A DNA stretch of 64,000 bases, from the NCBI RefSeq assembly GCF_014489575.1, contig NZ_CP060789.1, positions 2,666,001-2,730,000 on the forward strand. The letters are read 5' to 3'. The position numbers and the translations under genes were made by a program. A model generated the notes under the pieces. It searched no databases. It saw nothing but the letters and a program-made list of their open reading frames with translations, and was not told the origin of the DNA. Positions 12,380-40,610 of this stretch are shown here, one piece after another; position 1 is the stretch's first letter, and each line of letters begins with the position of its first letter. Source of the DNA: Tessaracoccus defluvii (GTDB lineage Bacteria; Actinomycetota; Actinomycetes; Propionibacteriales; Propionibacteriaceae).

Positions 12380-13351
12380 ATGCGTGCAGTTCTCGTCGAT
12401 TCCCCTGGTGGCCCGGAGTCCATGCGTGTCGGCGAGGTCGACACCCCCACCCCCGGCCCTGGCGAGGTGCTGGTCAAGACGGTGGCCTCCGGCGTGAACC
12501 GGGCCGATGTCCTGCAACGCCAGGGCCACTACCCGCCGCCCCGCGGCACCACCGACATCATCGGCCTCGAGGCCTCAGGCGTCGTGGCGGCCGTCGGCGA
12601 CGGCGTCGACCAGTGGCGCGAAGGCGACGAGGTCGTCGCCCTGCTCGCCGGCGGCGGCTACGCCGAGTACTTCGTGGCGCCGGCCGGGCAGCTGATCGCC
12701 CCGCCCTCCTCCGTCGACCTGGTCACCGCGGGCGGACTGCTGGAGGTCGCGGCCACCGTCGTGTCCAACCTGGACGTGGCCGGCCTGGCCGCAGGCGAGG
12801 TGTTCCTCGTCCATGGCGGCGCGGGCGGCATCGGCACCTTCGCCATCCAGTACGCCAAGGCGCTCGGGGCGACCGTCATCACGACGGCGGGCACCGCCGA
12901 GAAGGTGCGGCACTGCCTCGACCACGGCGCCGACCACGCCATCGACTACCACGACGACTGGCCCGCGGCCGTCGCTGAGGCCACCGGCGGAAAGGGCGCC
13001 GACGTCATTCTCGACATCATGGGCGCCAAGTACCTCGAGGCCAACGTGAAGTCGCTGGCCCGCCGGGGCCGGATGGTCGTCATCGGGCTGCAGGGTGGCG
13101 TCAAGGGCACCCTGAACCTCGGCCTGCTGCTGGCCAAGCAGGGCACGATCACCGCGACGTCGCTGCGGTTCCGCCCCGCGGCCGAGAAGGCGGCGATCTG
13201 TTCCCGGGTGGCGGAGACCGTGTGGCCGCTCATCGACGCGGGCACCATCGCGGTGAGCCCCGAGACCCGGTTCCCGTTCGCCGAGGTGCAGGCGGCCCAC
13301 ACCCACCTCGTGGGCGGCGACAACGTCGGAAAGATCGTCCTGGTGCACTGA
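12380..13351 (+). CDS. NAD(P)H-quinone oxidoreductase, PIG3/QOR type (MDR superfamily)
   Basis: 323 residues. Zinc-free medium-chain reductase that uses NADPH to reduce quinones or enones. VASGVNRADVLQRQGHYPPP near residue 35 is the PIG3 signature. The Rossmann segment is VFLVHGGAGGIGTFAIQYAK (about 143-162). The length is normal. The ATG at 12380 was chosen over upstream in-frame starts because it begins the conserved MRAVLVDSPGGPE and follows the -10 box by 7 nt. Confidence 0.9.
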   Translation: MRAVLVDSPGGPESMRVGEVDTPTPGPGEVLVKTVASGVNRADVLQRQGHYPPPRGTTDIIGLEASGVVAAVGDGVDQWREGDEVVALLAGGGYAEYFVAPAGQLIAPPSSVDLVTAGGLLEVAATVVSNLDVAGLAAGEVFLVHGGAGGIGTFAIQYAKALGATVITTAGTAEKVRHCLDHGADHAIDYHDDWPAAVAEATGGKGADVILDIMGAKYLEANVKSLARRGRMVVIGLQGGVKGTLNLGLLLAKQGTITATSLRFRPAAEKAAICSRVAETVWPLIDAGTIAVSPETRFPFAEVQAAHTHLVGGDNVGKIVLVH

Positions 13352-13376
13352 CCCCGGGCCGGGGCCGGGCAGCCGT

Positions 13377-14633
13377 TCAGCGCCTGCGGCCTCCCCGTCG
13401 CAGCAGCGCGACGGCGCCGAGCGCGGCGCCCGCGACGGCTCCGATCTTCAGCCAGCTGCGCCTGCGGGGCATGGCCGCGGCCGCCTCGAGCGTCTCCTGC
13501 AGCGACGCGGCCGCACTTGTCCGCGAGAACCGGTCGAGCAGCGCCACGGCATTGTCGGCCCACGCCTGCCTGGTCGCCTCGTCGGCGTCGCGGACGCGCG
13601 TGATGCCCTCGACCAGCTCCTCGGGCCCGACCATCGCGCCCACCTCGCCGTCCGCCGCGACGCGACGCAGCGGGTGAGCCGCGTTCGACACGACCGGCAG
13701 CCCGGCTGCGAGGTAGTCGAACAGCTTGTTGGGGCTCATGCCCTTGTCGAGCACCTTCAGCGGCGCGATGACGTGCAGGCCGACGTCACAGGCCCGCAGC
13801 AGCCGTGGCAGCTCGGCCTTGGGGATGGGGTCGCGGAACTCGACGTTGCCCAGGCCACGGCGGCCCGCCTCGTCGATCGCCCACTGCTTCTCCGAGCCGG
13901 ATCCGATCATGAGGAAGTTGACGTCCGGCAGCGCCTCCGCGGCATCCAGCGTCAGGTCGACCCGGTTGGCGGGGCCGTGCGCGCCGGCGTAGACGGCGGT
14001 GTAGCCGGAGATGCCGTACTCGCGGCGGAGCGTGTCGCGGTCGTCGGAGACGACGAAGTCGGCGGCCTCGGTACCGTTGGAGATGGCGACGACCCGCGAC
14101 CGGTCGACGCCGAACGCCTCGAAGTGGTCCTCCCAGCCGGGGGTCACGACGACGATCCGGTCGGCGCCGCGGTACAGCGTGCCCTCCAGACCCATCAGGA
14201 TCCGGTGCACGAGCGATCCCTCCCGCAGATGCCCCATCGCGACGATGCTCTCGGGCCAGAGGTCACGGACCTCCATCACGAACGAGGCGCCCTTGAGCCG
14301 CGCCACCAGCAGCGCCGCCGCCGCGGCGAGCAGCTGCGGGGACGACCCGTAGACCACGTCGGCAGGCTTGGTCAGCGACGCCACCGTCGCCTCGGCGGCG
14401 AAGACGCCCCAGCCCAGCATCCGCATGACGCCGTTGCCGGAGTACGTCGGGATCGGCACGAGCACGAAGCGCGGATCGCTGGTCGTGTACGGCTTCTGCG
14501 TGTAGTGACTCACGTTGCTGGCGACGAAGGTCGTCTCCCAGCCCTGCAGCCGATCGAACAGATCAACGTGTCGCGTGCCGCCGCCCTGGTCTCGGGGCTG
14601 GGCGTAGTGCTCGATCACGATGGCCTTCGACAT
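13377..14633 (-). CDS. Glycosyltransferase family 4, membrane-anchored
   Basis: 418 residues, GT-B fold. Acceptor-side N-terminus MSKAIVIEHYAQPRDQGGGT, then AVYAGAHGPANRVDLTLDAA at the donor domain and KVLDKGMSPNKLFDYLAAGLP, the nucleotide-sugar-binding loop. The last 25 residues form one hydrophobic helix ending in RRGGRRR, which should tether the enzyme to the inner membrane. The ATG has GGGAGG 7 nt upstream. First gene of the polysaccharide locus. WbuB-like by general appearance; donor and acceptor are unknown. Confidence 0.87.
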   Translation of the reverse strand: MSKAIVIEHYAQPRDQGGGTRHVDLFDRLQGWETTFVASNVSHYTQKPYTTSDPRFVLVPIPTYSGNGVMRMLGWGVFAAEATVASLTKPADVVYGSSPQLLAAAAALLVARLKGASFVMEVRDLWPESIVAMGHLREGSLVHRILMGLEGTLYRGADRIVVVTPGWEDHFEAFGVDRSRVVAISNGTEAADFVVSDDRDTLRREYGISGYTAVYAGAHGPANRVDLTLDAAEALPDVNFLMIGSGSEKQWAIDEAGRRGLGNVEFRDPIPKAELPRLLRACDVGLHVIAPLKVLDKGMSPNKLFDYLAAGLPVVSNAAHPLRRVAADGEVGAMVGPEELVEGITRVRDADEATRQAWADNAVALLDRFSRTSAAASLQETLEAAAAMPRRRSWLKIGAVAGAALGAVALLRRGGRRR

Positions 14634-14662
14634 GGACCTACCTCCCACGGGTTGACCCGGAC

Positions 14663-14717
14663 AGTCTAGGCCCCCGCGCCGCGACCCCCGGGCACGCTCC
14701 GGTCCAGGCACTAGACT
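14663..14717. promoter_or_regulatory. Divergent -10 boxes for the glycosyltransferase and the decarboxylase/ATP-grasp operon
   Basis: TAGACT on the minus strand at 14663-14668 and TAGACT on the plus strand at 14712-14717: identical hexamers facing outward. Confidence 0.5.
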
Positions 14718-14746
14718 CCCGGGTGATCAGTTACCAAGGAGTCCGA

Positions 14747-15943
14747 GTGAGCGAGACCATCGTCACCCCCGCGTTCGTCGTCGACGAGCCGGCGCTGCGC
14801 AGGCAGGTGGAGTCGTTCACCGACGCGATGGCCGACGTCTGGCCCGGCGGCATCGTCAGCTACTCCGTCAAGACCAACTCGCTGCCCTGGGTCGTCGCCT
14901 GGATGGAGCCGGCGGGCGTCTGGGCCGAGGTCGTCTCTGACGACGAGTACGAGCTGGCCACCGCGCTCGGACACACCCCGGAGCGGATCGTCTTCAACGG
15001 CCCCGTGAAGTCCCGCGCCGCGCTGGCCCGCGCCATCGACGGGGGATCCCTGATCAATCTCGACTCACAGCGCGAGTTGCGCTGGGCCACCGAACTGGCG
15101 GCCGAGCGTCCCGCGGGCTCCGTCAAGGTGGGGGTCCGGGTCAACTGGAACGTCGACGCGGAGTGCCCCGGCGCGACGGCGAGCGGACCGGACGGGCTGC
15201 GCTTCGGCTTCCACGTCGAGGGCGGAGACCTCACCGAGGCCCTGCAGTACCTCGCTGCAGGGGGCGTCGAGGTGGTCGGCCTGCACCTGCACGTCACCAG
15301 CCTGAGCCGCGGCATCGACGTGTACCGCTCGGCGGCCCGCACGGCCGTCGGCGTGATCCGTGACCACGCGCTGCGCCTCGACTACCTCGACATCGGCGGC
15401 GGTTTCTTCGGCGGCGACAACCCGGATTTCCCCACGCCCACGCAGTATCTGACGGCGATCCGCGACGTCCTCGTCGACGCGGTCGATCCCGCTGTCACCC
15501 GTCTGATCATCGAGCCGGGGGCCGCGCTCATCGCCGTCCCCGTCGACTTCCACACCAGCGTCATCGACGCCAAGCAGGTCCAGGACCACGTCATCGTCGT
15601 CACCGACGGTTCGCGCACCAACCTCGACACGTTCTTCCGCAAGACGGGCTACGCACACGACCTGATCACCGCCGGGGAGCCGACCGCGACGCCGCAGGTG
15701 ATCTCGGGCTTCACCTGCCTCGACAACGACCGGCTGATGACCCTGGTCGACGCGCCGCGGCTGCGCGAGGGGGATCAGGTCATCTACCTCCGGGTCGGGT
15801 CGTACACGATGGCCTTCAACCCGCTGTTCATCAACTATCTGCCCGCCGTCTACGCCCGCCGCGACGACGGCCGCCTGCAGCTGGTCCGGCGCCGCTGGAC
15901 GGCGGCGGACTACCTGGCCGGAAACGATTGGAGCCTCTCGTGA
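14747..15943 (+). CDS. PLP-dependent fold-III decarboxylase (diaminopimelate/ornithine decarboxylase-like)
   Basis: 398 residues. Alanine-racemase-type barrel followed by a C-terminal beta domain. The PLP lysine is Lys42 in SYSVKTN. The phosphate-binding DIGGGF, LHLHVTS, EPGAALIA and the cysteine of GFTCLDNDRL match the order in LysA-type decarboxylases. It is not an obvious LysA, and its context is a sugar-polymer locus, so the substrate is probably an amino acid used as a decoration. The GTG at 14747 was chosen because AAGGAG lies 5 nt upstream; an ATG-like start at 14723 lacks this. The stop overlaps the next start in GTGA. Confidence 0.8.
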   Translation: MSETIVTPAFVVDEPALRRQVESFTDAMADVWPGGIVSYSVKTNSLPWVVAWMEPAGVWAEVVSDDEYELATALGHTPERIVFNGPVKSRAALARAIDGGSLINLDSQRELRWATELAAERPAGSVKVGVRVNWNVDAECPGATASGPDGLRFGFHVEGGDLTEALQYLAAGGVEVVGLHLHVTSLSRGIDVYRSAARTAVGVIRDHALRLDYLDIGGGFFGGDNPDFPTPTQYLTAIRDVLVDAVDPAVTRLIIEPGAALIAVPVDFHTSVIDAKQVQDHVIVVTDGSRTNLDTFFRKTGYAHDLITAGEPTATPQVISGFTCLDNDRLMTLVDAPRLREGDQVIYLRVGSYTMAFNPLFINYLPAVYARRDDGRLQLVRRRWTAADYLAGNDWSLS

Positions 15944-16920
15944 ACGTCCTCATCCTCAGCGCAGGAAGCCGCGGCAAGCTCGTTTCCTACTTCCAGCGGG
16001 CCCTGGCCGGCCGCGGCAACGTCGTCACCACCGACAGCAGCGAGCTCGCCCCGACGCTCTACCTGGCCGACCGGCACTACGTCGTCCCCAGGATCACGGA
16101 CCCGGACTACCTGCCGACCATCCTCGACATCTGCCGCCGCGAGTCGATCGACACCTGCCTGTCGCTCATCGACCCTGAACTGGCGCTGCTCGCCGACCAT
16201 GCCGACGAGTTCCGGGCCGTCGGCGTGACCCCGATGATCTCCCCCGCCGAGGCCGTCCACCGCGGCTTCAACAAGTGGGACATGTACCGCTTCTGCGTCG
16301 ACAACGGCATCCCCACGCCGCGGACGTGGGCCGATGCGGCCACGCTCCGGGCCGACCTCGAGGCCGGCGTCGTCGCTCTGCCGCTGTTCGCCAAGCCCGC
16401 GACGGGCTCCGCCTCCGCGAACATCCGCACCGTCACCGACGCGGCCGAACTGGCCGAGGCGTGGGCGCTGGCTCCCGACATGATCGTCCAGGAGCTGATG
16501 ACGGGCGAGGCGATCGACGTCGACGTCTACATCGACCTCATCACCGGCGAGGTCATCTCGCTCTTCGCCAAGAAGAAGCTGCGGATGCGGGCGGGAACGG
16601 CCGACAAGTCCGTCTCCTTCAAGGACCCGGCGCTCGACCGCTTCGTGATCGACTTCTGCCGGGTCGCCGGCTTCCGGGGCGCCATCGACATCGACCTCTT
16701 CGTCACCGACGACGGCTACTCGCTCCTGGAGGTCAACCCCCGGTTCGGCGGCGTCTACCCGCACGCCTATGAGTGCGGCGTCGACTTCCCCTCGATGCTG
16801 CTGCGCAACGTGGCCGGCGAGGCGAACGAGCCGAACATCGGCGCCTACGAGGAGGACTGGGCGATGCTCGCCTACGAGGAGGTCGTGATGACCCGCATCG
16901 AAGGCCTGTCGCGGAACTGA
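15940..16920 (+). CDS. ATP-grasp carboxylate-amine ligase (CarB-like)
   Basis: 326 residues. N-terminal Rossmann-like domain MNVLILSAGSRGKLVSYFQR, central ATP-grasp with PLFAKPATGSAS and DMIVQELMTGEAIDVDVYID, and the metal-binding end SLLEVNPRFGGVYPHAYECG. Such enzymes activate a carboxylate as acyl phosphate and join it to an amine. It is translationally coupled to the decarboxylase gene (GTGA overlap) and ends 4 bp from the convergent sugar transferase gene. It could acylate an amino sugar with an amino-acid-derived group; that role is inference. Confidence 0.8.
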   Translation: MNVLILSAGSRGKLVSYFQRALAGRGNVVTTDSSELAPTLYLADRHYVVPRITDPDYLPTILDICRRESIDTCLSLIDPELALLADHADEFRAVGVTPMISPAEAVHRGFNKWDMYRFCVDNGIPTPRTWADAATLRADLEAGVVALPLFAKPATGSASANIRTVTDAAELAEAWALAPDMIVQELMTGEAIDVDVYIDLITGEVISLFAKKKLRMRAGTADKSVSFKDPALDRFVIDFCRVAGFRGAIDIDLFVTDDGYSLLEVNPRFGGVYPHAYECGVDFPSMLLRNVAGEANEPNIGAYEEDWAMLAYEEVVMTRIEGLSRN

Positions 16921-16924
16921 CCCG

Positions 16925-17548
16925 TCAGGGGCGGACCTGCTCGTCGGGCGCGCCCTCGAAGTCGGTCATGGTCGCCTGACCCTCCTCCGAGATCCCCTCC
17001 CGCCGCAGCACCACCGCGACGGAGTCGAACAGGATCCGCAGGTCGAGCGCCAGGGAGCGGTGCTCGACGTAGTAGGCGTCCCAGGCCAGCCGGGTCCCCC
17101 ACGAGACGGTGTTGCGCCCCTTGACCTGCGCGAGGCCGGTCACGCCGGGGCGCACGTCGTGGCGGGTGGCCTGCCGGGGCGTGTACAGGGGGAGGTACTC
17201 GGGGAGCAGGGGCCGCGGTCCCACGATGCTCATGTCCCCCTTGAGGACGTTGAGCAGGCTCGGCAGTTCGTCGAGGCTCGTCGCGCGGAGGAGGGCGCCC
17301 AGCCGGGTCATCCGCTCGTCGTCGGTGATGTGGGTCTCGTCCTCCACGAGCATCGTGCGGAACTTGACCATCTCGAAGACGCGACCGCCGCGGCCGGGCC
17401 TGGCCTGCCGGAACAACACCGGCGACCCCATCCGCAGCCGCACGGCGAGCGCGACGACCAGTTGGATCGGCAGGGTGACGATCAGCAGCGTCCAGGCGAC
17501 GACGAGGTCGATGGCGCGCTTGACCGGGTCGTAGGGGCGCCTCCTCAC
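16925..17548 (-). CDS. Undecaprenyl-phosphate sugar-1-phosphate transferase, PglC-like
   Basis: 207 residues. Monotopic phosphoglycosyltransferase that loads the first sugar phosphate onto undecaprenyl phosphate. One N-terminal hydrophobic segment (about 12-35) is followed by FEMVKFRTM, DELPSLLNVLKGDMSIVGPR and PGVTGLAQV, the family core. The size is that of the small PglC type, lacking the large N-terminal region of WbaP. The GTG start overlaps the stop of the upstream aminotransferase gene (GTGA). Probably uses the product of the PglF/PglE-like enzymes encoded nearby. Confidence 0.9.
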   Translation of the reverse strand: MRRRPYDPVKRAIDLVVAWTLLIVTLPIQLVVALAVRLRMGSPVLFRQARPGRGGRVFEMVKFRTMLVEDETHITDDERMTRLGALLRATSLDELPSLLNVLKGDMSIVGPRPLLPEYLPLYTPRQATRHDVRPGVTGLAQVKGRNTVSWGTRLAWDAYYVEHRSLALDLRILFDSVAVVLRREGISEEGQATMTDFEGAPDEQVRP

Positions 17549-18693
17549 GCCGCGGCCCTGAAGAAGTCGCCGACGGTGTCGAGCACCCTCGCGACCTCCT
17601 CATCCGTGAGCACCGACCCGCTGGGCAGGCTGACGCCCTGCTCGAAGAAACGGTCAGAGGTACCGTCGACGTACGAGTCGAGGTGCTGGAACACCGGCTG
17701 CGCGTGCATCGGCTTCCAGAGCGGCCGGCTCTCCATGTTGTGCCCGCTGAGGTGCGCGATCAGCTGGTCCCTCGTGACGCCGGCGACCGCGGGGTCGATC
17801 AGGATCGAGGTCAGCCAGAAGTTGTCGTGATCGACGCCGCCGTCGGCACCGTCGGGCTGCGCGAAGAACGTCACGCCCGGCACGTCCGCCAGGAGCGCCT
17901 TGTAGGCGAGCCGCAGCTGGCGGCGCCGCTCCATCATGGCGGGCAGGCGTTCCAACTGCGCGCGACCGAGGGCGGCCAGCAGGTTGGAGAGACGGTAGTT
18001 GTAGCCGATGTCCTTGTGTTCGTAGTGGAGCACGGGGAGGCGCGCCTGGGTGGCCAGATACCGGACGTGCTGCGCGAAGTCTCCGTCGTCGGTCAGTAGC
18101 GCGCCGCCGCCCGACGTCGTCATGATCTTGTTTCCGTTGAACGAGACGGCTGCCGCCTCCCCGAAGGAGGCCGACGGTCGGCCGCTGTGGACCGCGCCGA
18201 ACGACTCCGCGGCGTCGCTGAGGATGCGCAGCCCGCTGGCCTCGGCGAGTTCGGCGATGGCCTCGTGGTTGACGACGTGGCCCAGCAGGTCGACGGGGAC
18301 GATGGCGCGCAGGTCCGCGCCCTTCGCCCGCTGATCCTCGATCGCGCGCGCCAGGAGCTCGATGGAGATGGCCCCCTCGGCGTCGGCGTCGATCAGCACG
18401 GGCGTGGCGCCGGTGTATGTGATGGCGTTGGTGGTGGCTGCGAAGGTGAAGCTCGACGTCAGCACCACGGAGCCCGGCCCGATGCCCATCGTCAGCAGGG
18501 CGAGGTGCAGCGCGGCGGTACCGGAGGAGAGGGCGACGGCATGCTCACGGCCCGCGTACGCGGCGAGCTCTGCCTCGAACGCGTCCACCTCCGGCCCGAG
18601 GGGCGCGATCCAGCCGGTGGCCATGGCCCGCTGGAGCGCAGCGGACTCCGCCGCCGTCACATCGGGCGAGGAGAGGTTGATTCGAGCGTTCAC
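17545..18693 (-). CDS. DegT/DnrJ/EryC1 sugar aminotransferase, PglE-like
   Basis: 382 residues. PLP enzyme that aminates a nucleotide-linked keto sugar. ALSSGTAALHLALL (cofactor phosphate site), LSDAAESFGA and the catalytic lysine in SFNGNKIMTTSGGG are present; the sequence continues with HDNFWLTSILID and the HNMESRPLWKPMH motif typical of 4-keto-sugar aminotransferases. The GTG at 18693 is preferred, with AGGTAGAG about 9 nt upstream. Co-transcribed with the PglC-like gene. With the PglF-like dehydratase it should make UDP-4-amino-4,6-dideoxy-GlcNAc or a close relative. Confidence 0.88.
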   Translation of the reverse strand: MNARINLSSPDVTAAESAALQRAMATGWIAPLGPEVDAFEAELAAYAGREHAVALSSGTAALHLALLTMGIGPGSVVLTSSFTFAATTNAITYTGATPVLIDADAEGAISIELLARAIEDQRAKGADLRAIVPVDLLGHVVNHEAIAELAEASGLRILSDAAESFGAVHSGRPSASFGEAAAVSFNGNKIMTTSGGGALLTDDGDFAQHVRYLATQARLPVLHYEHKDIGYNYRLSNLLAALGRAQLERLPAMMERRRQLRLAYKALLADVPGVTFFAQPDGADGGVDHDNFWLTSILIDPAVAGVTRDQLIAHLSGHNMESRPLWKPMHAQPVFQHLDSYVDGTSDRFFEQGVSLPSGSVLTDEEVARVLDTVGDFFRAAA

Positions 18694-18783
18694 GACCGCA
18701 ACTCTACCTGCCGCGCAGGTTCGGTCCCTTCGGCTCGCGCGGCACCAAGCCACGCCCTGCCGCGCCTGGCAAGGCACCCGTAT

Positions 18784-18818: not shown

Positions 18819-19424
18819 ATGGCAGAGGCCAGAATTCTCCCATCCGCCGACCTCGACGACGGAGTCACCATCGGTGACGGCTCCTCCGTCTGGCACCTCG
18901 CCCAGGTGCGCGGAGGCGCGGAGATCGGAGAGAACGTCATCGTCGGCCGCGGCGCGTACATCGGAAGCGGTGTGCACGTCGGCGACAACTGCAAGATCCA
19001 GAACTACGCGCTGGTCTACGAACCGGCCTACCTGGAGAACGGGGTCTTCATCGGCCCCGCCGCCGTTCTGACCAACGACACGTTCCCCCGCGCCATCAAC
19101 CCTGACGGCACCAGCAAGAGCGCCCACGACTGGGAGCCCGTCGGCGTCACGCTGCGCGAGGGCTGCTCCGTCGGGGCCCGCGCCGTCTGTGTCGCCCCCG
19201 TCACCATCGGCCGCTGGGCCACCGTCGCCGCCGGGTCGGTCGTCACCAAGGACGTGCCCGACTTCGCACTCGTGGCCGGCGTCCCTGCCCGGCGCATCAA
19301 GTGGGTGGGCCGCTCGGGCTTCCCGCTGGAGCAGACCGGCGACCTTACTTTCATCGATCCCCACACGGGGGACACGTTCGTGCAAGAGGGCGAGACCCTT
19401 TCACTCACCGAGGAAGCGAAATGA
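18819..19424 (+). CDS. UDP-2-acetamido-3-amino-2,3-dideoxy-glucuronate N-acetyltransferase, WbpD/WlbB-like
   Basis: 201 residues. Left-handed beta-helix acetyltransferase built of hexapeptide repeats (TIGDGS, EIGENV, YIGSGV, KIQNYA, SVGARA, TIGRWA). GVFIGPAAVLTNDTFPRA is diagnostic of the WlbB/WbpD group. Uses acetyl-CoA to acetylate the 3-amino group. AGGAG upstream of the ATG. The stop overlaps the aminotransferase start (ATGA); gene order D-E-B with tight coupling supports the pathway assignment. Confidence 0.87.
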   Translation: MAEARILPSADLDDGVTIGDGSSVWHLAQVRGGAEIGENVIVGRGAYIGSGVHVGDNCKIQNYALVYEPAYLENGVFIGPAAVLTNDTFPRAINPDGTSKSAHDWEPVGVTLREGCSVGARAVCVAPVTIGRWATVAAGSVVTKDVPDFALVAGVPARRIKWVGRSGFPLEQTGDLTFIDPHTGDTFVQEGETLSLTEEAK

Positions 19425-20512
19425 CAGAATCCTTCATCCCGCCGGCCAAGCCGATCATCGGCGACGAGGAGCGAGAGGCCGTCGACCGCGTGCTGCGCTC
19501 GGGCATGATCGCCCAGGGCCCGGAGGTCGCCGCGTTCGAGACCGAGTTCTCGGAGCACTTCGGCCTCGGCCGCGCCTGTGTCGCCGTCAACTCCGGCACG
19601 TCGGGCCTGCACCTCGGCCTGCTCGCGAGCGGCGTGAAGGCCGGCGATGAGGTCATCGTCCCGAGCTTCACCTTCGCCGCGACGGCGAACTCCGTCGCGC
19701 TGACCGGCGCCACCCCCGTCTTCGCGGACATCGCCCTCGACGACTTCACGCTCGACCCGGCCTCCGTCGAGGCCGCGATCACGGACAAGACGGTCGCCAT
19801 CATGCCCGTCCACCTGTACGGCCACCCGGCCAAGATGGACCAGCTCCGCGCGATCGCCGACAAGCACGGCATCCAGCTCTTCGAGGACGCCGCGCAGGCC
19901 CACGGCGCCTCGCTCAACGGCACCCCGGTCGGCGCCTTCGGCACGTTCGGGATGTTCTCGCTGTACCCCACCAAGAACATGACGTCGGGCGAGGGTGGCA
20001 TGGTGTCCGCCGCCGACGAGCACATCGAGCGCAACCTGCGGCTCTACCGCAACCAGGGCATGCTGCAGCAGTACCACAACGAGGTCGTCGGCCTGAACAA
20101 CCGCATGACCGACATCCACGCGGCCATCGGCCGTGTGCAGCTGACGAAGGTCGGCGCCTGGACCAAGCAGCGTCAGGACAACGCCGCGTTCCTGTCGAGC
20201 AACCTCGAGGGCGTCGTCGTCCCCCAGGTCGCCGAGGGCGCCGTGCACGTATACCACCAGTACACGGTCCGCGTCGCCGAGGACCGCGACGGTCTCTCGA
20301 AGGCGCTGAAGGAGGAGTACAACATCGGCTCCGGCATGTTCTACCCGGTTCCGAACCACCGCCTGAAGCCGTTCCAGCGCGACGTGCACCTGGCGAACAC
20401 CGAGCAGGCGGCCCTCGAGTGCCTGTCGCTGCCCGTCCACCCCTCGCTCAGCCAGGGCGACCTCGAACGCATCGTGACGGCCGTCAACGCCCTCACGAAG
20501 GCCGGTGCATGA
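19421..20512 (+). CDS. UDP-2-acetamido-2-deoxy-ribo-hexuluronate aminotransferase, WbpE/WlbC-like
   Basis: 363 residues. DegT-family PLP enzyme forming the 3-amino group. AVNSGTSGLHLGLL binds the cofactor phosphate, FEDAAQAHGA the pyridine ring, and the Schiff-base lysine is in SLYPTKNMTSGEGG. YNIGSGMFYPVPNH is usual for WbpE. The ATG at 19421 (ATGA with the previous stop) was chosen; an upstream in-frame start at 19301 would lie inside the acetyltransferase. Its own stop overlaps the next gene. Confidence 0.88.
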   Translation: MTESFIPPAKPIIGDEEREAVDRVLRSGMIAQGPEVAAFETEFSEHFGLGRACVAVNSGTSGLHLGLLASGVKAGDEVIVPSFTFAATANSVALTGATPVFADIALDDFTLDPASVEAAITDKTVAIMPVHLYGHPAKMDQLRAIADKHGIQLFEDAAQAHGASLNGTPVGAFGTFGMFSLYPTKNMTSGEGGMVSAADEHIERNLRLYRNQGMLQQYHNEVVGLNNRMTDIHAAIGRVQLTKVGAWTKQRQDNAAFLSSNLEGVVVPQVAEGAVHVYHQYTVRVAEDRDGLSKALKEEYNIGSGMFYPVPNHRLKPFQRDVHLANTEQAALECLSLPVHPSLSQGDLERIVTAVNALTKAGA

Positions 20513-21500
20513 TGGCGAACCTGCGCGCGGGCCTCATCGGCCTCGGAATGATGGGCCGTCACCACGCCCGTAACCTCCGCGCGATCGACGGCGTCGACCT
20601 CGTCGCCGTCGCCGACGCCCTGGGGATCCTCACGGCGTCGCCGGCCCGCTGGACGTTCTGCCCAACGTGGACGCGCTGATCGAGGCCGGCATCGACTACG
20701 CCGTCGTCGCTCTCCCCACGGAGTACCACGAGGAGGCGGGGCTGAAGCTTGCCGCTGCGGGCATCCACGCCCTGATCGAGAAGCCGCTGGCCAAGACGAC
20801 GGAGGCCGCCCGCGCCCTCGCCACCGCCTTCGAGGCGGCAGGTGTGATCGGCGCGGTCGGCCACATCGAGCGGTACAACCCCGCGCTGCAGAGCCTGCGC
20901 GCGCGCCTCGAGGCGGGTGACCTGGGCGACCTGTACCAGATCTCCACCCGCCGTCAGGGCCCGTTCCCGAACCGCATCGCCGACGTCGGCGTGGTCAAGG
21001 ACCTCGCCAGCCACGACATCGATCTGACGGCCTGGGTGACCCAGCGTCAGTACGAGTGGGTCGGCGCCCGCACCATGTACAAGTCCGGCCGCGAGCACGA
21101 GGACATGGTGTCGGCCACCTGCACCCTGTCCGGGTCGCTGATGAGCAACCACCTGGTCAACTGGCTGACGCCGACCAAGGAGCGCCTCACGATCGTCACC
21201 GGCGAGAAGGGCATGTTCGTCGCGGACACCCTGACGGCCGACCTGACGTTCTACGCGAACGGCCAGAGCCTGCACGTGTGGGACGACCTGGCACAGTTCC
21301 AGGGCGTCACCGAGGGCGACGTGACGAAGTTCGCGATCGCCAAGCCGGAGCCGCTGCGCGTCGAGCACGAGAACTTCCGTGACGCCGTCCTGGGCAAGGA
21401 CAACGACATCGTCACCCTCGAGCAGGGCGCCCGCGTCGTCGAGGTCTGCGAAGCCATGATCACCTCCGCCCAGACGAACGAGTTCGTCCGCATCCGGTGA
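20509..21500 (+). pseudogene. Gfo/Idh/MocA nucleotide-sugar dehydrogenase, WbpB/WlbA-like, frameshifted by one base
   Basis: 330 residues if one G is added to the GGGG run at 20622-20625. The first frame gives LRAGLIGLGMMGRHHARNLR, the NAD-binding start, to VAVADAL. The second resumes GDPHGVAGPLDVLPNVDALI and runs to the end with LIEKPLAKT, GHIERYNPAL and VKDLASHDIDL, all WlbA/WbpB motifs. The enzyme oxidises C3 of UDP-GlcNAcA. The ATG at 20509 overlaps the upstream stop. The rest of the frame has no further damage, so a read error is plausible. Confidence 0.82.
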
Positions 21501-25827: not shown

Positions 25828-27126
25828 TCAGAACCCCTTGCCGACGACGAGCCGCGTGACGCCGGCCCAGTTGGCGGGTCGGGTGGCGTTGCGTCCGTCG
25901 ACCAGCACCGCGATCCCGGGCAGGTCCGCCGGCGTCAGCTCGACGTACTCCGGGTGGTCGGCCTGGAGGATCGCCGCGTCCACGCCCTCGCCGAGGTGGT
26001 ACGGCGTGAACCCGTACGCCGCGAGCTCCTCGTCGGTGAACATCGGGTCGTGCACGAGGACCTCGGCCCCGCGGGCCTTCAGGGCGTCGACGGCGGTGAA
26101 GACGCCGGAGAACGCCGTCTCCTTGACCCGGCCGCGGTACGAGGCGCCGAGCACGACGACGCGGCGACCCGCGAGCGAGCCGTCGAGGGCCGACTCCACG
26201 AGCGACACGGTGTAGTCGGGCATCTGCATGTTGGCCTCGCGGGCGGTGCGGACGATCGTGGCGTCCGGATCGGTCCACAGGTACAGGCGGGGGTAGACGG
26301 GGATGCAGTGGCCGCCGACGGCGATGCCGGGCCGGTGGATGTGGCTGAAGGGCTGCGAGTTGCAGGCGTCGATCACCTTGTAGATGTCGATCCCGTTGCC
26401 AGCCGCGAACCGGCCGAACTGGTTCGCGAGGCCGATGTTGACGTCGCGGTACGTGGTCTCGGCCAGCTTGGCCATCTCGGCCGCCTCCGCTGTACCCATG
26501 TCCCACACGCCGTTGGGCTGGTCAAGGTCGGGCCGGTCATCGAAGTCCAGCACCTGCTCGTAGAACGTGACGCCCGCGGCGGTGCCGGCGTCGCTGAGGC
26601 CGCCGACCAGCTTGGGGTACTTGCGCAGGTCCTCGAAGACGCGGCCCGTGAGGACACGCTCCGGGGAGAAGATCAGGTGGAAGTCGGTGCCCTCGACCAG
26701 TCCGGAGACCTCCTCGAGCATCGGCTTCCAGCGGTTGCGGGTGGTGCCGACGGGCAGCGTGGTCTCGTAGGAGACCAGGGTGCCGGGGGTCAGGTGCTCC
26801 GCGAGCGAGCGGGTCGCCGCCTCCATCCAGCCGAAGTCCGGCTCCCACGTCTCATCGTTGACGAACAGGGGGACGACAAGGACGACGGCGTCAGCGCCCG
26901 GAATGGCCTCGGCGTAGTCAGTGGTGGCGCGCAGCCGTCCGGCGGGCACGAGCTCGCTCAGCTTGTCCTGGAGGTACGCCTCTCCCGGGAAGGGTTCCAC
27001 GGCTTCGTTGATGAGGTCGACGACGCGCTGCTGGACGTCCACCCCGACCACGTCGTGCCCCTTCGATGCGAACTGCACGGCAAGGGGCAGCCCGATCTTT
27101 CCCATCGCGACGACGGCGATCTTCAT
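25828..27126 (-). CDS. UDP-N-acetyl-hexosamine 6-dehydrogenase, WbpA/WecC-like
   Basis: 432 residues. Two-step NAD-dependent oxidation of C6 of UDP-GlcNAc (or UDP-ManNAc) to the uronate. N-terminal Rossmann MKIAVVAMGKIGLPLA, SYETTLPVGTT, FSPERV, the conserved lysine region in EMAKLAETTYRDVNIGLAN, and catalytic cysteine in GGHCIPVYP; the C-terminal domain begins VVVLGASYRG. Supplies the uronate for the WbpB/E/D/I-like steps. ATG with AAGGAG about 7 nt upstream. Transcribed divergently from the Wzz-like gene. Confidence 0.9.
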   Translation of the reverse strand: MKIAVVAMGKIGLPLAVQFASKGHDVVGVDVQQRVVDLINEAVEPFPGEAYLQDKLSELVPAGRLRATTDYAEAIPGADAVVLVVPLFVNDETWEPDFGWMEAATRSLAEHLTPGTLVSYETTLPVGTTRNRWKPMLEEVSGLVEGTDFHLIFSPERVLTGRVFEDLRKYPKLVGGLSDAGTAAGVTFYEQVLDFDDRPDLDQPNGVWDMGTAEAAEMAKLAETTYRDVNIGLANQFGRFAAGNGIDIYKVIDACNSQPFSHIHRPGIAVGGHCIPVYPRLYLWTDPDATIVRTAREANMQMPDYTVSLVESALDGSLAGRRVVVLGASYRGRVKETAFSGVFTAVDALKARGAEVLVHDPMFTDEELAAYGFTPYHLGEGVDAAILQADHPEYVELTPADLPGIAVLVDGRNATRPANWAGVTRLVVGKGF

Positions 27127-34840: not shown

Positions 34841-36180
34841 TCGGCCGACTCCGCCAGAAGCTGGCCAACCACGAGTTCCTGCGCCACGTCCTGACGCTGA
34901 TGTCGGGCACGGCCGTGGCCCAGCTCATCCCGATCCTCGCCTCGCCGATCATCTCGCGCCTCTACACACCGGCTGAGATGGGTGTCTTCACCATCTGCAT
35001 GTCGGTCGTGGCGGTCGTCGTGACCATCTCAGCCGGCCGCTACGACCTGGCCATCGTGTTGCCCCGCAAGGAAGAGGACGCGCGGGGGCTGGTCAAGCTG
35101 GCCACGCGCTTCAACACCGTTGTCTGCACCGTCGTGGGCCTGCTGCTCCTCGTGTTCGCCGAGCCCCTCGCGGAACGGATGGGCATCCCAGGCTTCCGCT
35201 GGTGGCTGGTGGCGACGGCGGGCATTTCGTGGGCCTTCGCGCAGGCCTCGGTCTTCAGCTACTGGTGCAACCGTCACAAGGGGTACGGCCTGCTCGCACG
35301 CAACAAGCTCGGGCAGGCTGTGGCCACCACAGGCACCCAGCTCGGGCTGGGTGCGTTGTCCTGGGGCCCGGCCGGGCTGCTCGTCAGCACCTTCCTGGGA
35401 CAGGCGTGGTCGACGGTGAACCTCTTCCTCCGCAGCCGCAAGGAGATCTACAGGCTGCCCCACACCTCCACCCGGCAATTGATGCGCGAGCACAGGAAGA
35501 TGCCGCTGCTGAATGCGCCGACGGCGCTCATGGACAGCGTGCGCACCAACGGGGTCACCCTGCTGATCGGCAACCTGTTCGACAGCGTGGCCGTCGGCCA
35601 CTTCGGCCAGGCCTGGAAGCTGCTGCAGACCCCGGCGGCGCTGATCAACTCGAGCCTGTCGCAGGTCTTCTTCCAGAAGCTGGCGACCGTGGAGCGGGGC
35701 GGGATGCTGCGGATCGTCCGACAGTCAGCGGTGCGGTCCGCCCTGATCGGAGCCGTTCCCTTCACTCTGATCTACTTCCTGTCCCCGCCCCTGTTCCCGA
35801 TCGTGTTCGGCGAACCGTGGGCCATGTCGGGTCTCATCGGCGCGGCGCTGGTGCCGTGGCTGTTCATGAACTTCATCACCTCGCCCATCTCGACCGTCTT
35901 CATCGTGACGCAGCGCCAGGGGACACTGTTCTGGTTCAGCCTGCCCTTCACCGTCACGCCGCTGCTCGTGCTCTGGGCCTACCACCCGACCGTGCTCGGC
36001 GCCGTCACAGCGCTGTCGCTGACCATGACGGTCATGCTGGCGGCGTTCCTCGTGCTGGCACTGTGGGTGTCGTGGGGCTACGACCGTGGTGTCGGCAGGA
36101 AGGCGGACGACGAGGCCGCCGCGGAGGCCGAGGCGGAGGCTGCGGCCGAGGCCGAGCAGCTGGGCGGCCCTACGACGTAG
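34837..36180 (+). CDS. Wzx-type lipid-linked oligosaccharide flippase
   Basis: 447 residues with 12 or so hydrophobic segments of the MATE/MOP superfamily. LMSGTAVAQLIPILASPIIS and RLYTPAEMGVFTICMSVVAV at the N-terminus are standard for polysaccharide flippases. Moves undecaprenyl-linked repeat units from the inner to the outer leaflet. The cytoplasmic C-terminal tail is an Ala/Glu repeat (about 430-443), unusual for the family. Coupled to the wzy-like gene. Confidence 0.87.
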   Translation: MIGRLRQKLANHEFLRHVLTLMSGTAVAQLIPILASPIISRLYTPAEMGVFTICMSVVAVVVTISAGRYDLAIVLPRKEEDARGLVKLATRFNTVVCTVVGLLLLVFAEPLAERMGIPGFRWWLVATAGISWAFAQASVFSYWCNRHKGYGLLARNKLGQAVATTGTQLGLGALSWGPAGLLVSTFLGQAWSTVNLFLRSRKEIYRLPHTSTRQLMREHRKMPLLNAPTALMDSVRTNGVTLLIGNLFDSVAVGHFGQAWKLLQTPAALINSSLSQVFFQKLATVERGGMLRIVRQSAVRSALIGAVPFTLIYFLSPPLFPIVFGEPWAMSGLIGAALVPWLFMNFITSPISTVFIVTQRQGTLFWFSLPFTVTPLLVLWAYHPTVLGAVTALSLTMTVMLAAFLVLALWVSWGYDRGVGRKADDEAAAEAEAEAAAEAEQLGGPTT

Positions 36181-37965
36181 CCGGGTCCGCCCCGTGCTGG
36201 CGGGTCAGCTGGTCCATGGACTCCGGGTCCGCACCGTCGACCTTCGCGAGCTCCGCCGGGTTGAGCGACGGCACGCTCACGCGGCTGATCAGCGGGTGCA
36301 CCGTCTCTGAGCGGGACTCGTCGTCGGAGAACAGCACCTCGTGCAGCTTCTCGTTGGGGCGCAGGCCGGTGAAGACGATCTCGATCGGCTTGTTGGAGCG
36401 GGCGATCAGGTTGCGGGCGACGTCGATGATCTTGACGGGCTCCCCCATGTCGAGCACCAGCACGTCGGACGGCTGGCCGATGGCGCCGGCCTGGATGGTC
36501 AGCTCGCAGGCCTCGGGGATCGTCATGAAGAAGCGAGTGATGTCCGGGTGGGTGACGGTGAGCGGGCCCCCGCGTCGATCTGCTGCGTGAAGGTGTGCAC
36601 CATGGAGCCGCGGGAGCCCAGCACGTTGCCGAACCGGACGGAGAGGAAGACTCTACCTGTCGTCTCGGCGAAGTACGAGGTCAGCTCCTCTGCGAGCCGC
36701 TTGGTCTTGCCAAGCACCGACGTGGCGTCGGCGGCCTTGTCGGTGGAGATGTTCACATACCGCTGCACCCCGTGCCTGACGGCGGCCTCCAGCACGTTGA
36801 GGGAGCCGAGCACGTTGGTCTTCCACCCCTCGAGCGGGTACTGCTCGAGCAGGGGGAGGTGCTTCAGGGCCGCGGCATGGAAGACGACGTCGGGCTTGTG
36901 CAGCTCGAAGATCCTGTCGACGGCGTCCGCGTCGCGGATGTCGCAGAGCACCATGTTCGGGGTGTCGAGCAGACCCTGCTTGAAGATCGACAGCTGCACC
37001 CCGTGCAGTCCGGACTCGTCGCGGTCGAGCATGACGAGTTCCTTGGGCCCGAACCGGTACACCTGACGGGCGATCTCCGAGCCGATGGAGCCGCCGGCGC
37101 CGGTGACCAGCACCACCTTGCCGGAGAGGTAGTCCGAGATGGATCCGAGGTCGGTCTCGACCTGGGCCCGGCCCAGGAGGTCGGTGACGTCGAGTTCGTG
37201 GAGATTCGACAGCTGCACCTTGCCGCCCACGATGTCGCGGGTCGGGGGCATCACGAGGGTCTTGAGGCCAGCCTCGTCGGCGACCTTGGACACGTCACGC
37301 ATCAGCTGCCGGTCGGCCGTCGGGATGGCCACGATGATCGTGCTGACGTTGCGGGCCCGGGCGGCCTCGACGAGGTGCGTCCGGTCGCCGAGCACCCTCG
37401 CCCTGGCGATGTGCAGGTTCCGCTTCGCGGGGTCGTCGTCGATGTAGCCGACGATGTCGAACGGTGCGTCGGGGTCGAAGGCGAGGAGCCGGCCGAGCTG
37501 CTGGCCGGCGTTGCCTGCGCCGTAGACGATGACGGGTTCGGTGTCCTCGCCGTTGCGCATCGACTGGCTGATCGTGCGGAGGATGAAGCGACCGGCCGCC
37601 ATCAGGACGAGCGCGACGATGGGGGCTGTCACCGTCAGCGCACGCGGGTAGCCGGGGGGCGTGGCGATACCGATGACGACGGCGAGGGCGAGGCCGACGC
37701 CGAGGGTGAGCGCGGCGAGCGACAGCGCCTCTTCGAAGGAGGCGACGCTGTGCCTACCGCGGTAGATCTTGGTGACGTAGCCGATGCCGACCTGCAGCAC
37801 GATGGCGGCCAGCGAGTAGACCAGCACGAACCGCACGTGTTCGGGGCCCAGGGACAGGTCGTAGCGGGTGAGCACCAGGCCGATGACGGCGAGGGTCCAG
37901 GAGAGCGCGTCCCACAAGGCCAGGCCGGCCCGTACCAGGTTGACTCGTGATCGGCCTACAGCCAC
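36170..37965 (-). pseudogene. Membrane-bound UDP-sugar 4,6-dehydratase, PglF/CapD-like, frameshifted by one base
   Basis: 598 residues if one base is restored to the five-C run at 36567-36571. N-terminal four hydrophobic segments, a Rossmann domain (VIVYGAGNAGQQLGRLLAFD), then an SDR domain with VLVTGAGGSIGSEIARQ, LDRDESGLH, HAAALKHLPLLE and NISTDKAADATSVLGKTKRL. The C-terminal part resumes DITRFFMTIPEACELTIQAG in the other frame. Converts UDP-GlcNAc to the 4-keto-6-deoxy sugar, the substrate for the PglE-like aminotransferase. The GTG at 37965 has GGAGG 6 nt upstream. Its end overlaps the end of the Wzx gene by 11 bp. Confidence 0.85.
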
Positions 37966-38002
37966 GTGGATCCTCCGCCTCGATAGTCGAACGGGGGTCA
38001 GT

Positions 38003-40610
<2,608 letters not shown>

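Follow-up and report, generated by a model that had tools for sequence, protein, structure and literature searches.

What is the role of a decarboxylase encoded beside a carboxylate-amine ligase in a polysaccharide locus? The question is raised by two genes in a 64,000-nucleotide stretch of the Tessaracoccus defluvii genome (G000:C1:2666001-2730000; the genome is a single contig of 3.86 Mb), referred to here as the window. The first gene, DEC (14747..15943, + strand; 398 amino acids, GTG 14747 to TGA 15943), encodes an alanine-racemase-fold (fold III) pyridoxal 5'-phosphate (PLP) decarboxylase, and the second, GRASP (15940..16920, + strand; 326 amino acids, GTG start, TGA stop), an ATP-grasp carboxylate-amine ligase of the PRK12767 family with a PylC-like N domain. 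In bacteria with this pair, a rare sugar of the surface polymers probably carries a trimmed amino acid where an acetyl group would be usual. The explanation that we favour, and hold to be reasonably probable, is that DEC-GRASP serves as an amide-forming module within a pathway of the bacillosamine type, where it would replace PglD (EpsM), an acetyltransferase that depends on acetyl-CoA.

A conserved pair of decarboxylase and ligase

Pfam and NCBIfam profiles bear out the two enzyme classes proposed in a preliminary description of this DNA: DEC matches Orn_Arg_deC_N (1.8e-33), while GRASP matches PylC-like_N (2.3e-34) and ATP-grasp_3 (1.7e-11) and passes the NCBIfam model NF009406 (PRK12767.1-5) with 404.8 bits at a curated cut-off of 271. 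The AlphaFold2 models have a mean predicted local distance difference test (pLDDT) score of 91.0 for DEC and 93.9 for GRASP; the latter most closely resembles structure 2pn1 from Exiguobacterium and, after it, PylC, PurT, biotin carboxylase, and further ATP-grasp enzymes. Ligases of the GRASP type are annotated just as “carbamoyl phosphate synthase-like,” and relatives of DEC, the nearest named ones by identity being from Tessaracoccus, Arachnia, and Pseudopropionibacterium, as diaminopimelate decarboxylase or hypothetical. The translational coupling that had been proposed for the two genes is also found on direct reading of the sequence, as a four-base GTGA stop/start overlap (15940..15943, + strand), and the motif AAGGAG at 14736..14741 (+ strand) is the likely ribosome-binding site of DEC.

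The distribution of the pair was addressed through the co-occurrence search that the preliminary description had called for. When species genomes in GTDB were scanned, 185 relatives of DEC were found, from which the best 80 loci, selected by two peptide motifs, were kept; they come from Actinobacteria and Firmicutes, and pseudaminic acid genes are found near DEC in 23 of them, leaving 57 non-pseudaminic loci. An ATP-grasp gene lies within 300 bp of DEC in 61 of the 80 loci (on the same strand in most, 45 downstream and 9 upstream, and on the opposite strand in 7), and one is found anywhere in the examined stretch in 71; of the nine loci that have none, L038, L047, and L080 are cut off by the end of a contig next to DEC. 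The nearest ATP-grasp matches the main profile in 65 loci, a second subfamily in four and a third in two. Among 197 genomes of the window's family, the aminotransferase LegC was found in 41, DEC in 10 and GRASP in 9; all nine GRASP genomes fall among the ten with DEC, and LegC is present in nine of those ten (all but G165). Because 61 of 80 loci have an ATP-grasp gene so close to DEC and the GRASP genomes are all DEC genomes, the pairing is more than chance, and DEC-GRASP is a real, widespread and conserved enzyme pair.

The neighbors of DEC were counted with six-frame profiles; LegC was counted by tblastn (more than 200 bits to the window LegC), since the “legc” profile catches other DegT aminotransferases too. 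Of the 57 non-pseudaminic loci, 30 have both LegC and a phosphoglycosyl transferase (PGT), 16 have PGT alone, one has LegC alone, and ten have neither. LegC lies within 4 kb and PGT within 3 kb of DEC in 22 of the 80 loci, and a contiguous order PglF-LegC-PGT-DEC-GRASP is seen in nine Firmicutes loci: L040, L044, L045, L049, L053, L054, L057, L058, and L063.

PglD in genomes with and without the pair

In the window, a small PglC-type PGT, recognized by a profile match (Bac_transf; 16925..17548, - strand), adjoins a LegC-family/PglE-type nucleotide-sugar aminotransferase (17545..18777, - strand), for which the best model, TIGR04181, is below cut-off and the start codon is unsure. Wide stretches were fetched for 20 of the 41 LegC genomes, namely all 12 members of the window's genus apart from the window's own genome and eight other members of the family; the others, with flanks of at most 1.5 kb, were left uncounted. 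PGT adjoins LegC in 19 of the 20 fetched loci (in L127 it is 6 kb away), and a PglD/NeuD-type acetyltransferase directly follows PGT in ten; in L125 one piece of PglD stands after PGT and the remainder is 6 kb off on the opposite strand. With the window included, PglD is found in none of the nine LegC loci from genomes that have DEC, whereas ten of the 12 from genomes that lack DEC contain it.

The same contrast is seen across whole genomes of the window's genus searched with TIGR03570. All eight genomes with LegC, DEC, and GRASP are without a full-length PglD/NeuD match (the best partial match reaches 65.9 bits), whereas all five with LegC and no DEC have PglD after PGT, at 197.7, 190, 184, and 152.1 bits (cut-off 160.8), the fifth being split in two pieces. 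The distance between DEC-GRASP and LegC-PGT in the eight genomes is at most 8 kb in three and 250-350 kb in two, with the remaining three having them on different contigs; as the pair is thus far from LegC-PGT or on another contig in five of the eight, the exclusion of PglD is not a mere position effect. No full-length PglD was found in any of the 80 examined DEC stretches, and the Firmicutes modules without a local PglD lend further support to replacement.

A search with the window PGT and GRASP joined as one query returned 6689 proteins at E <1e-20. Nineteen of the 120 listed are fusions, and among these listed matches PGT is always N-terminal and ATP-grasp C-terminal; in the window the two are separate, convergent genes. 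It is the exclusion of PglD and these fusions that best support the earlier proposal that an amino-acid-derived amide may be formed on a sugar amine. Taken with the co-occurrence, the link of the pair to LegC-PGT, the folds, and the conserved catalytic residues considered below, they make N-acylation of the 4-amine by GRASP likely.

Substrate, surroundings, and rival explanations

Residue columns were read for 82 DEC copies, from the 80 loci and the window, in an alignment with solved relatives. The PLP lysine (K42, numbered from GTG 14747), E256, and Y353 are invariant, as is R290, and the catalytic Cys (C324) is present in 81 of the 82. The acid at position +1 of this Cys is replaced by M, L, I, or V in all 82 copies. 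Conservation inside the two search motifs, D[ILM]GGGFFG and GFTC[MLI][ED]xD[RH][LI], is partly a product of selection, and this applies to the Cys region with its +1 column; the column aligned with the carboxylate-binding Arg of DapDC holds P in 75 copies and otherwise A, S, H, or T. Passages of PMC7857480 describe the acid after the catalytic Cys and the Arg that binds the distal carboxylate as substrate residues: the acid serves the side-chain amine of the substrate in ODC and DapDC, whereas in FigC, whose substrate is an amino acid conjugated through an amide, it is lost and Met stands in its place. The same passages group FigC, SbnH, AcsE, MccE, and BtrK with DapDC and D-ornithine decarboxylase, and state that the first five enzymes act on amino acids conjugated with citrate, a nucleotide-peptide, or a carrier protein. 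Because the acid is lost in DEC as in FigC, and because these five enzymes act on conjugates, a conjugated amino acid would, by analogy, be a reasonable substrate for DEC. In keeping with the closeness to FigC, N-citrylornithine decarboxylase (7kh2) ranks first with a profile made from 16 DEC proteins (200 bits, with plant DapDC at 176 and BtrK at 117) and is closest to DEC by Foldseek E-value; FigC, DapDC, and BtrK are near ties by structure.

The route that we propose would begin with a PglF-type dehydratase and a LegC-type aminotransferase, which would yield uridine diphosphate (UDP)-2-acetamido-4-amino-2,4,6-trideoxyhexose. GRASP, using ATP, would join an amino-acid carboxylate, most likely the side-chain carboxylate of Asp or Glu, to the 4-amine; DEC would next strip the alpha-carboxylate of the amino acid, leaving an omega-aminoacyl amide (beta-alanyl or 4-aminobutyryl); and the PglC-type PGT would transfer the resulting sugar phosphate to undecaprenyl phosphate as the first sugar of the polymer. 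If GRASP does N-acylate the 4-amine, then by analogy with the relatives of DEC ligation probably comes before decarboxylation. A dicarboxylic amino acid is expected, because an acid that loses its alpha-carboxylate still needs a carboxylate for joining, and either order would yield the same omega-aminoacyl amide, beta-alanyl from aspartate and 4-aminobutyryl from glutamate; the choice of amino acid, and so of product, is a guess. We offer only as a tentative and rather doubtful proposition the wider picture: a carrier-free “ligate, then decarboxylate” module that equips a nucleotide-activated sugar with an omega-aminoacyl amide at its 4-amine, so that in many surface polymers of Actinobacteria and gut Firmicutes the first sugar gains a free, positively charged arm, with the same decarboxylase recruited to pseudaminic pathways and at least three ATP-grasp subfamilies acting as partners.

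The polysaccharide setting recognized in the preliminary description is retained here, as the region looks like a Wzy-type polysaccharide locus. A GT4-type glycosyltransferase (13377..14633, - strand; likely start ATG 14633, read from the sequence) is divergent from DEC across a 113-bp gap (14634..14746); the divergence had been noted earlier, together with a promoter which is only inferred, a sigma-70 consensus scan of 13300-17700 having found 0 sites. Left of the pair a LytR-CpsA-Psr protein is encoded, and we infer that the polymer is attached to the wall. Beyond LegC lie a hexapeptide acyltransferase (18819..19424, + strand; WbpD-like by position, matched only partially by the PglD/NeuD model), a DegT-family aminotransferase (19421..20512, + strand; WbpE-like by context), a Gfo/Idh oxidoreductase (20509..21500, + strand; WbpB-like by context, frame interrupted near 20622), and a UDP-sugar 6-dehydrogenase (UDPG_MGDP_dh; 25828..27126, - strand; WbpA-like by context), which together resemble a WbpA/B/E/D set. 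The right part of the window also encodes two Wzy_C proteins and a flippase, and then a PglF/CapD-type 4,6-dehydratase (36170..38520, - strand; frame interrupted near 36541-36577). The WbpB-like and PglF-like genes are each split over two frames and have open copies in relatives, with sequence error and decay both possible; an open PglF-like gene elsewhere in the window genome is 50% identical to the interrupted copy.

Several arrangements seen among the 80 loci are worth recording in their own right. In Ancrocorticia populi (L007, 9998-14314) two DEC-GRASP pairs lie in tandem, perhaps to install two acyl groups; the Micrococcales loci L012, L013, L015, L017, and L019 have two ATP-grasp genes around one DEC, sometimes one per side; and a member of a FemAB/GNAT-like family (Acetyltransf_6), which could add a further aminoacyl unit, is found within about 6 kb of DEC in L009, L010, L011, L014, L018, L032, and L042. 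The Eisenbergiella-type pseudaminic loci (L062, L064, L069, L071, L072, L075, L077, L080) share the order PseG-PseF-DEC-PseI, with PseI seen where the contig continues, and L064, L071, and L075 have an ATP-grasp of another subfamily several kb from DEC. L044 (16922-21054) encodes a second, different fold-III decarboxylase close to an acyl carrier protein (ACP) and a DegT aminotransferase, a GtrII-like protein standing between them, and related arrangements occur in L045, L054, and L059; this second decarboxylase scores 193 bits with TIGR03099 and 181 bits with LysA, both below cut-off, and the cluster may be a BtrK-like module that depends on a carrier and shares the polysaccharide locus with DEC.

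Other functions for the pair have to be weighed. The preliminary description had itself raised the prospect of LysA and a peptide-type ligase belonging to unrelated metabolism, and LysA is indeed the top NCBIfam model of DEC, yet the score of 151.2 bits (TIGR01048) stays below the equivalog cut-off of 297.9. A second fold-III, LysA-like gene is found in the window genome at 965121, with 28% identity to DEC; all three LysA substrate residues, namely the acid after the catalytic Cys, the Arg for the distal carboxylate, and the Arg of the EPGR motif, which has a role in LysA, are replaced at the aligned columns in the 82 DEC copies; and amino-sugar neighbors recur across the DEC loci. LysA identity is rejected for DEC on the score, the substrate residues, and the presence of another LysA-like gene, and the idea of unrelated metabolism is largely refuted and highly improbable. 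Less far removed from our own explanation, though still unlikely, is that a free acid is what GRASP attaches to the 4-amine, as in the glyceroyl case of PglB2, and that DEC only supplies this acid or its precursor by acting first on the free amino acid. The occurrence of a lone ATP-grasp after PGT in L131, a locus with no PglD or DEC, would suit this reading, as would the several ATP-grasp subfamilies that accompany DEC; however, the tight link between DEC and GRASP suggests a shared intermediate, and FigC, SbnH, AcsE, MccE, and BtrK, the relatives unrelated to polyamines, act on conjugated amino acids according to the passages of PMC7857480.

The genes resembling WbpA/B/E/D suggest yet another possibility, in which the amine that DEC produces from an amino acid would be joined by GRASP to the carboxylate of a uronic acid made by these neighbors. 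In all nine genomes of the genus with DEC and GRASP, the hexapeptide gene is no more than 3 kb from the pair and a WbpE-like aminotransferase adjoins; where the stretch is long enough, Idh is also present, as is, in many cases, a UDP-sugar dehydrogenase, and the window has all of these. The dehydrogenase, however, is found in just 12 of the 57 non-pseudaminic loci and in none of the 23 pseudaminic ones, a uronic amide being therefore rejected as the common denominator of the DEC loci (12/80), and amidation of this kind leaves both the absence of PglD and the PGT-ATP-grasp fusions unexplained. We consider it quite unlikely.

Replacement of PglD by DEC-GRASP has observations weighing against it as well. 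The contrast within the genus is mostly one event: LegC of the eight genomes forms one clade (100/98), as does PGT (97/99), and mapping the DEC label onto the trees takes two changes, which means that the Fisher exact tests of PglD against DEC (7.8e-4 and 2.2e-4) overstate independence; there are about two independent contrasts in the family. L128 has neither PglD nor DEC; G165, a draft of 180 contigs, has DEC and GRASP, no LegC and a weaker PGT match; G040 has DEC and a single ATP-grasp match (32%), located on that contig at a distance of 113 kb; and the PglF-type gene of the window itself is frame-interrupted. The constant proximity to the hexapeptide gene in the nine genomes of the genus makes a role on the second sugar possible. 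In Firmicutes, a PglD/NeuD match above cut-off is found elsewhere in four of the 15 searched genomes with bacillosamine-type DEC loci (G017, G021, G028, G029), so that in these PglD is missing from the locus and not from the cell. As for the pseudaminic pathway, replacement of PseH by DEC-GRASP is unsupported, since a PseH-like match (61-94 bits, two above cut-off) turned up in each of the 16 genomes with pseudaminic DEC loci that were searched; these weak matches mean little, because control genomes match in 13 of 14 cases and the curated cut-off is passed by only two of the 31 genomes searched, and non-pseudaminic genomes partly score equally.

Should DEC-GRASP indeed replace PglD, an acylation step would be named in a large set of amino-sugar loci in which the ligase and the decarboxylase carry only the annotations given above. 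Such loci would have to be reread as lacking a C4 acetyl, and surface polymers of gut and environmental bacteria would be predicted to contain a cationic or zwitterionic sugar; the two enzymes would also be usable for making amine-tagged nucleotide sugars. The earlier view, which called the decoration uncommon for the wall polymer of an actinobacterium, is too narrow, as many Firmicutes loci also have the pair.

Comparison with known systems

The canonical acetyl route is represented in passages of PMC10653937 by EpsN/EpsM/EpsL and PglE/PglD/PglC. The loci described here have the same kinds of dehydratase, aminotransferase, and PGT as EpsC-EpsN-EpsM-EpsL of B. subtilis and PglF-PglE-PglD-PglC of Campylobacter, but they have DEC-GRASP and, within the locus, lack the acetyltransferase EpsM/PglD. 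For Clostridia, sugar amines bearing amino-acid amides have already been reported: in passages of PMC5207245, the flagellin of C. botulinum has a legionaminic acid with a gamma-linked N-methyl-glutamyl group, and that of C. difficile has Fuc3N with taurinyl-Ala-Gly. In the open-licence PubMed Central (PMC) text, titles and abstract openings yielded no report of a decarboxylase/ATP-grasp pair in sugar loci, and PMC13317340 and PMC4431377 held nothing on such a pair at the few words searched.

Butirosin synthesis, in which BtrJ is the ATP-grasp partner, had been put forward as the nearest precedent by enzyme type. BtrJ/BtrK/BtrI share with our pair a fold-III decarboxylase and a product logic that leads from Glu to 4-aminobutyryl, but BtrK trails both N-citrylornithine decarboxylase and DapDC with the DEC profile, and a four-ACP profile of limited sensitivity found carrier-protein matches in only four of the 80 loci, all 8.5-9.0 kb away from DEC, with none in the window. 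The precedent thus gives way to others, and dependence of DEC-GRASP on a carrier protein was rejected, there being no ACP match near DEC. On the side of the decarboxylase, the nearest solved relative by profile and Foldseek E-value is the N-citrylornithine decarboxylase FigC/FslC, and FigC has Met at position +1, as do most DEC copies.

For the ligase, Neisseria PglB2 would be a better precedent than BtrJ. Passages of PMC11130364 and PMC6959607 describe PglB2 as an ATP-grasp/PGT protein responsible for the 4-glyceramido sugar GATDH (4-glyceramido-2-acetamido-2,4,6-trideoxyhexose) in place of N,N'-diacetylbacillosamine (diNAcBac). As compared by layout and description, the two systems have in common an ATP-grasp instead of an acetyltransferase, alongside a PglC-type PGT and, as predicted for GRASP, acting on the same type of 4-amino UDP-sugar, and the natural fusions of PGT and GRASP relatives share the layout of PglB2. 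An ATP-grasp where PglD is absent is found in the genus (eight of eight against five of five genomes) and in the 20 loci with the window, and in Firmicutes at locus level only. Within the same family, L131 (6708-7667) has a lone ATP-grasp in the slot after PGT, with no PglD or DEC in the locus, an arrangement nearest to PglB2. The window differs in that PGT and ATP-grasp are not in one chain, and a decarboxylase is added, of which the passages on PglB2 make no mention; the acid, glyceric in PglB2, is predicted to be derived from an amino acid here. In our best reading, DEC-GRASP would serve to N-acylate 4-amino sugars with a group other than acetyl, as a module of the PglB2 type to which a decarboxylase has been added.

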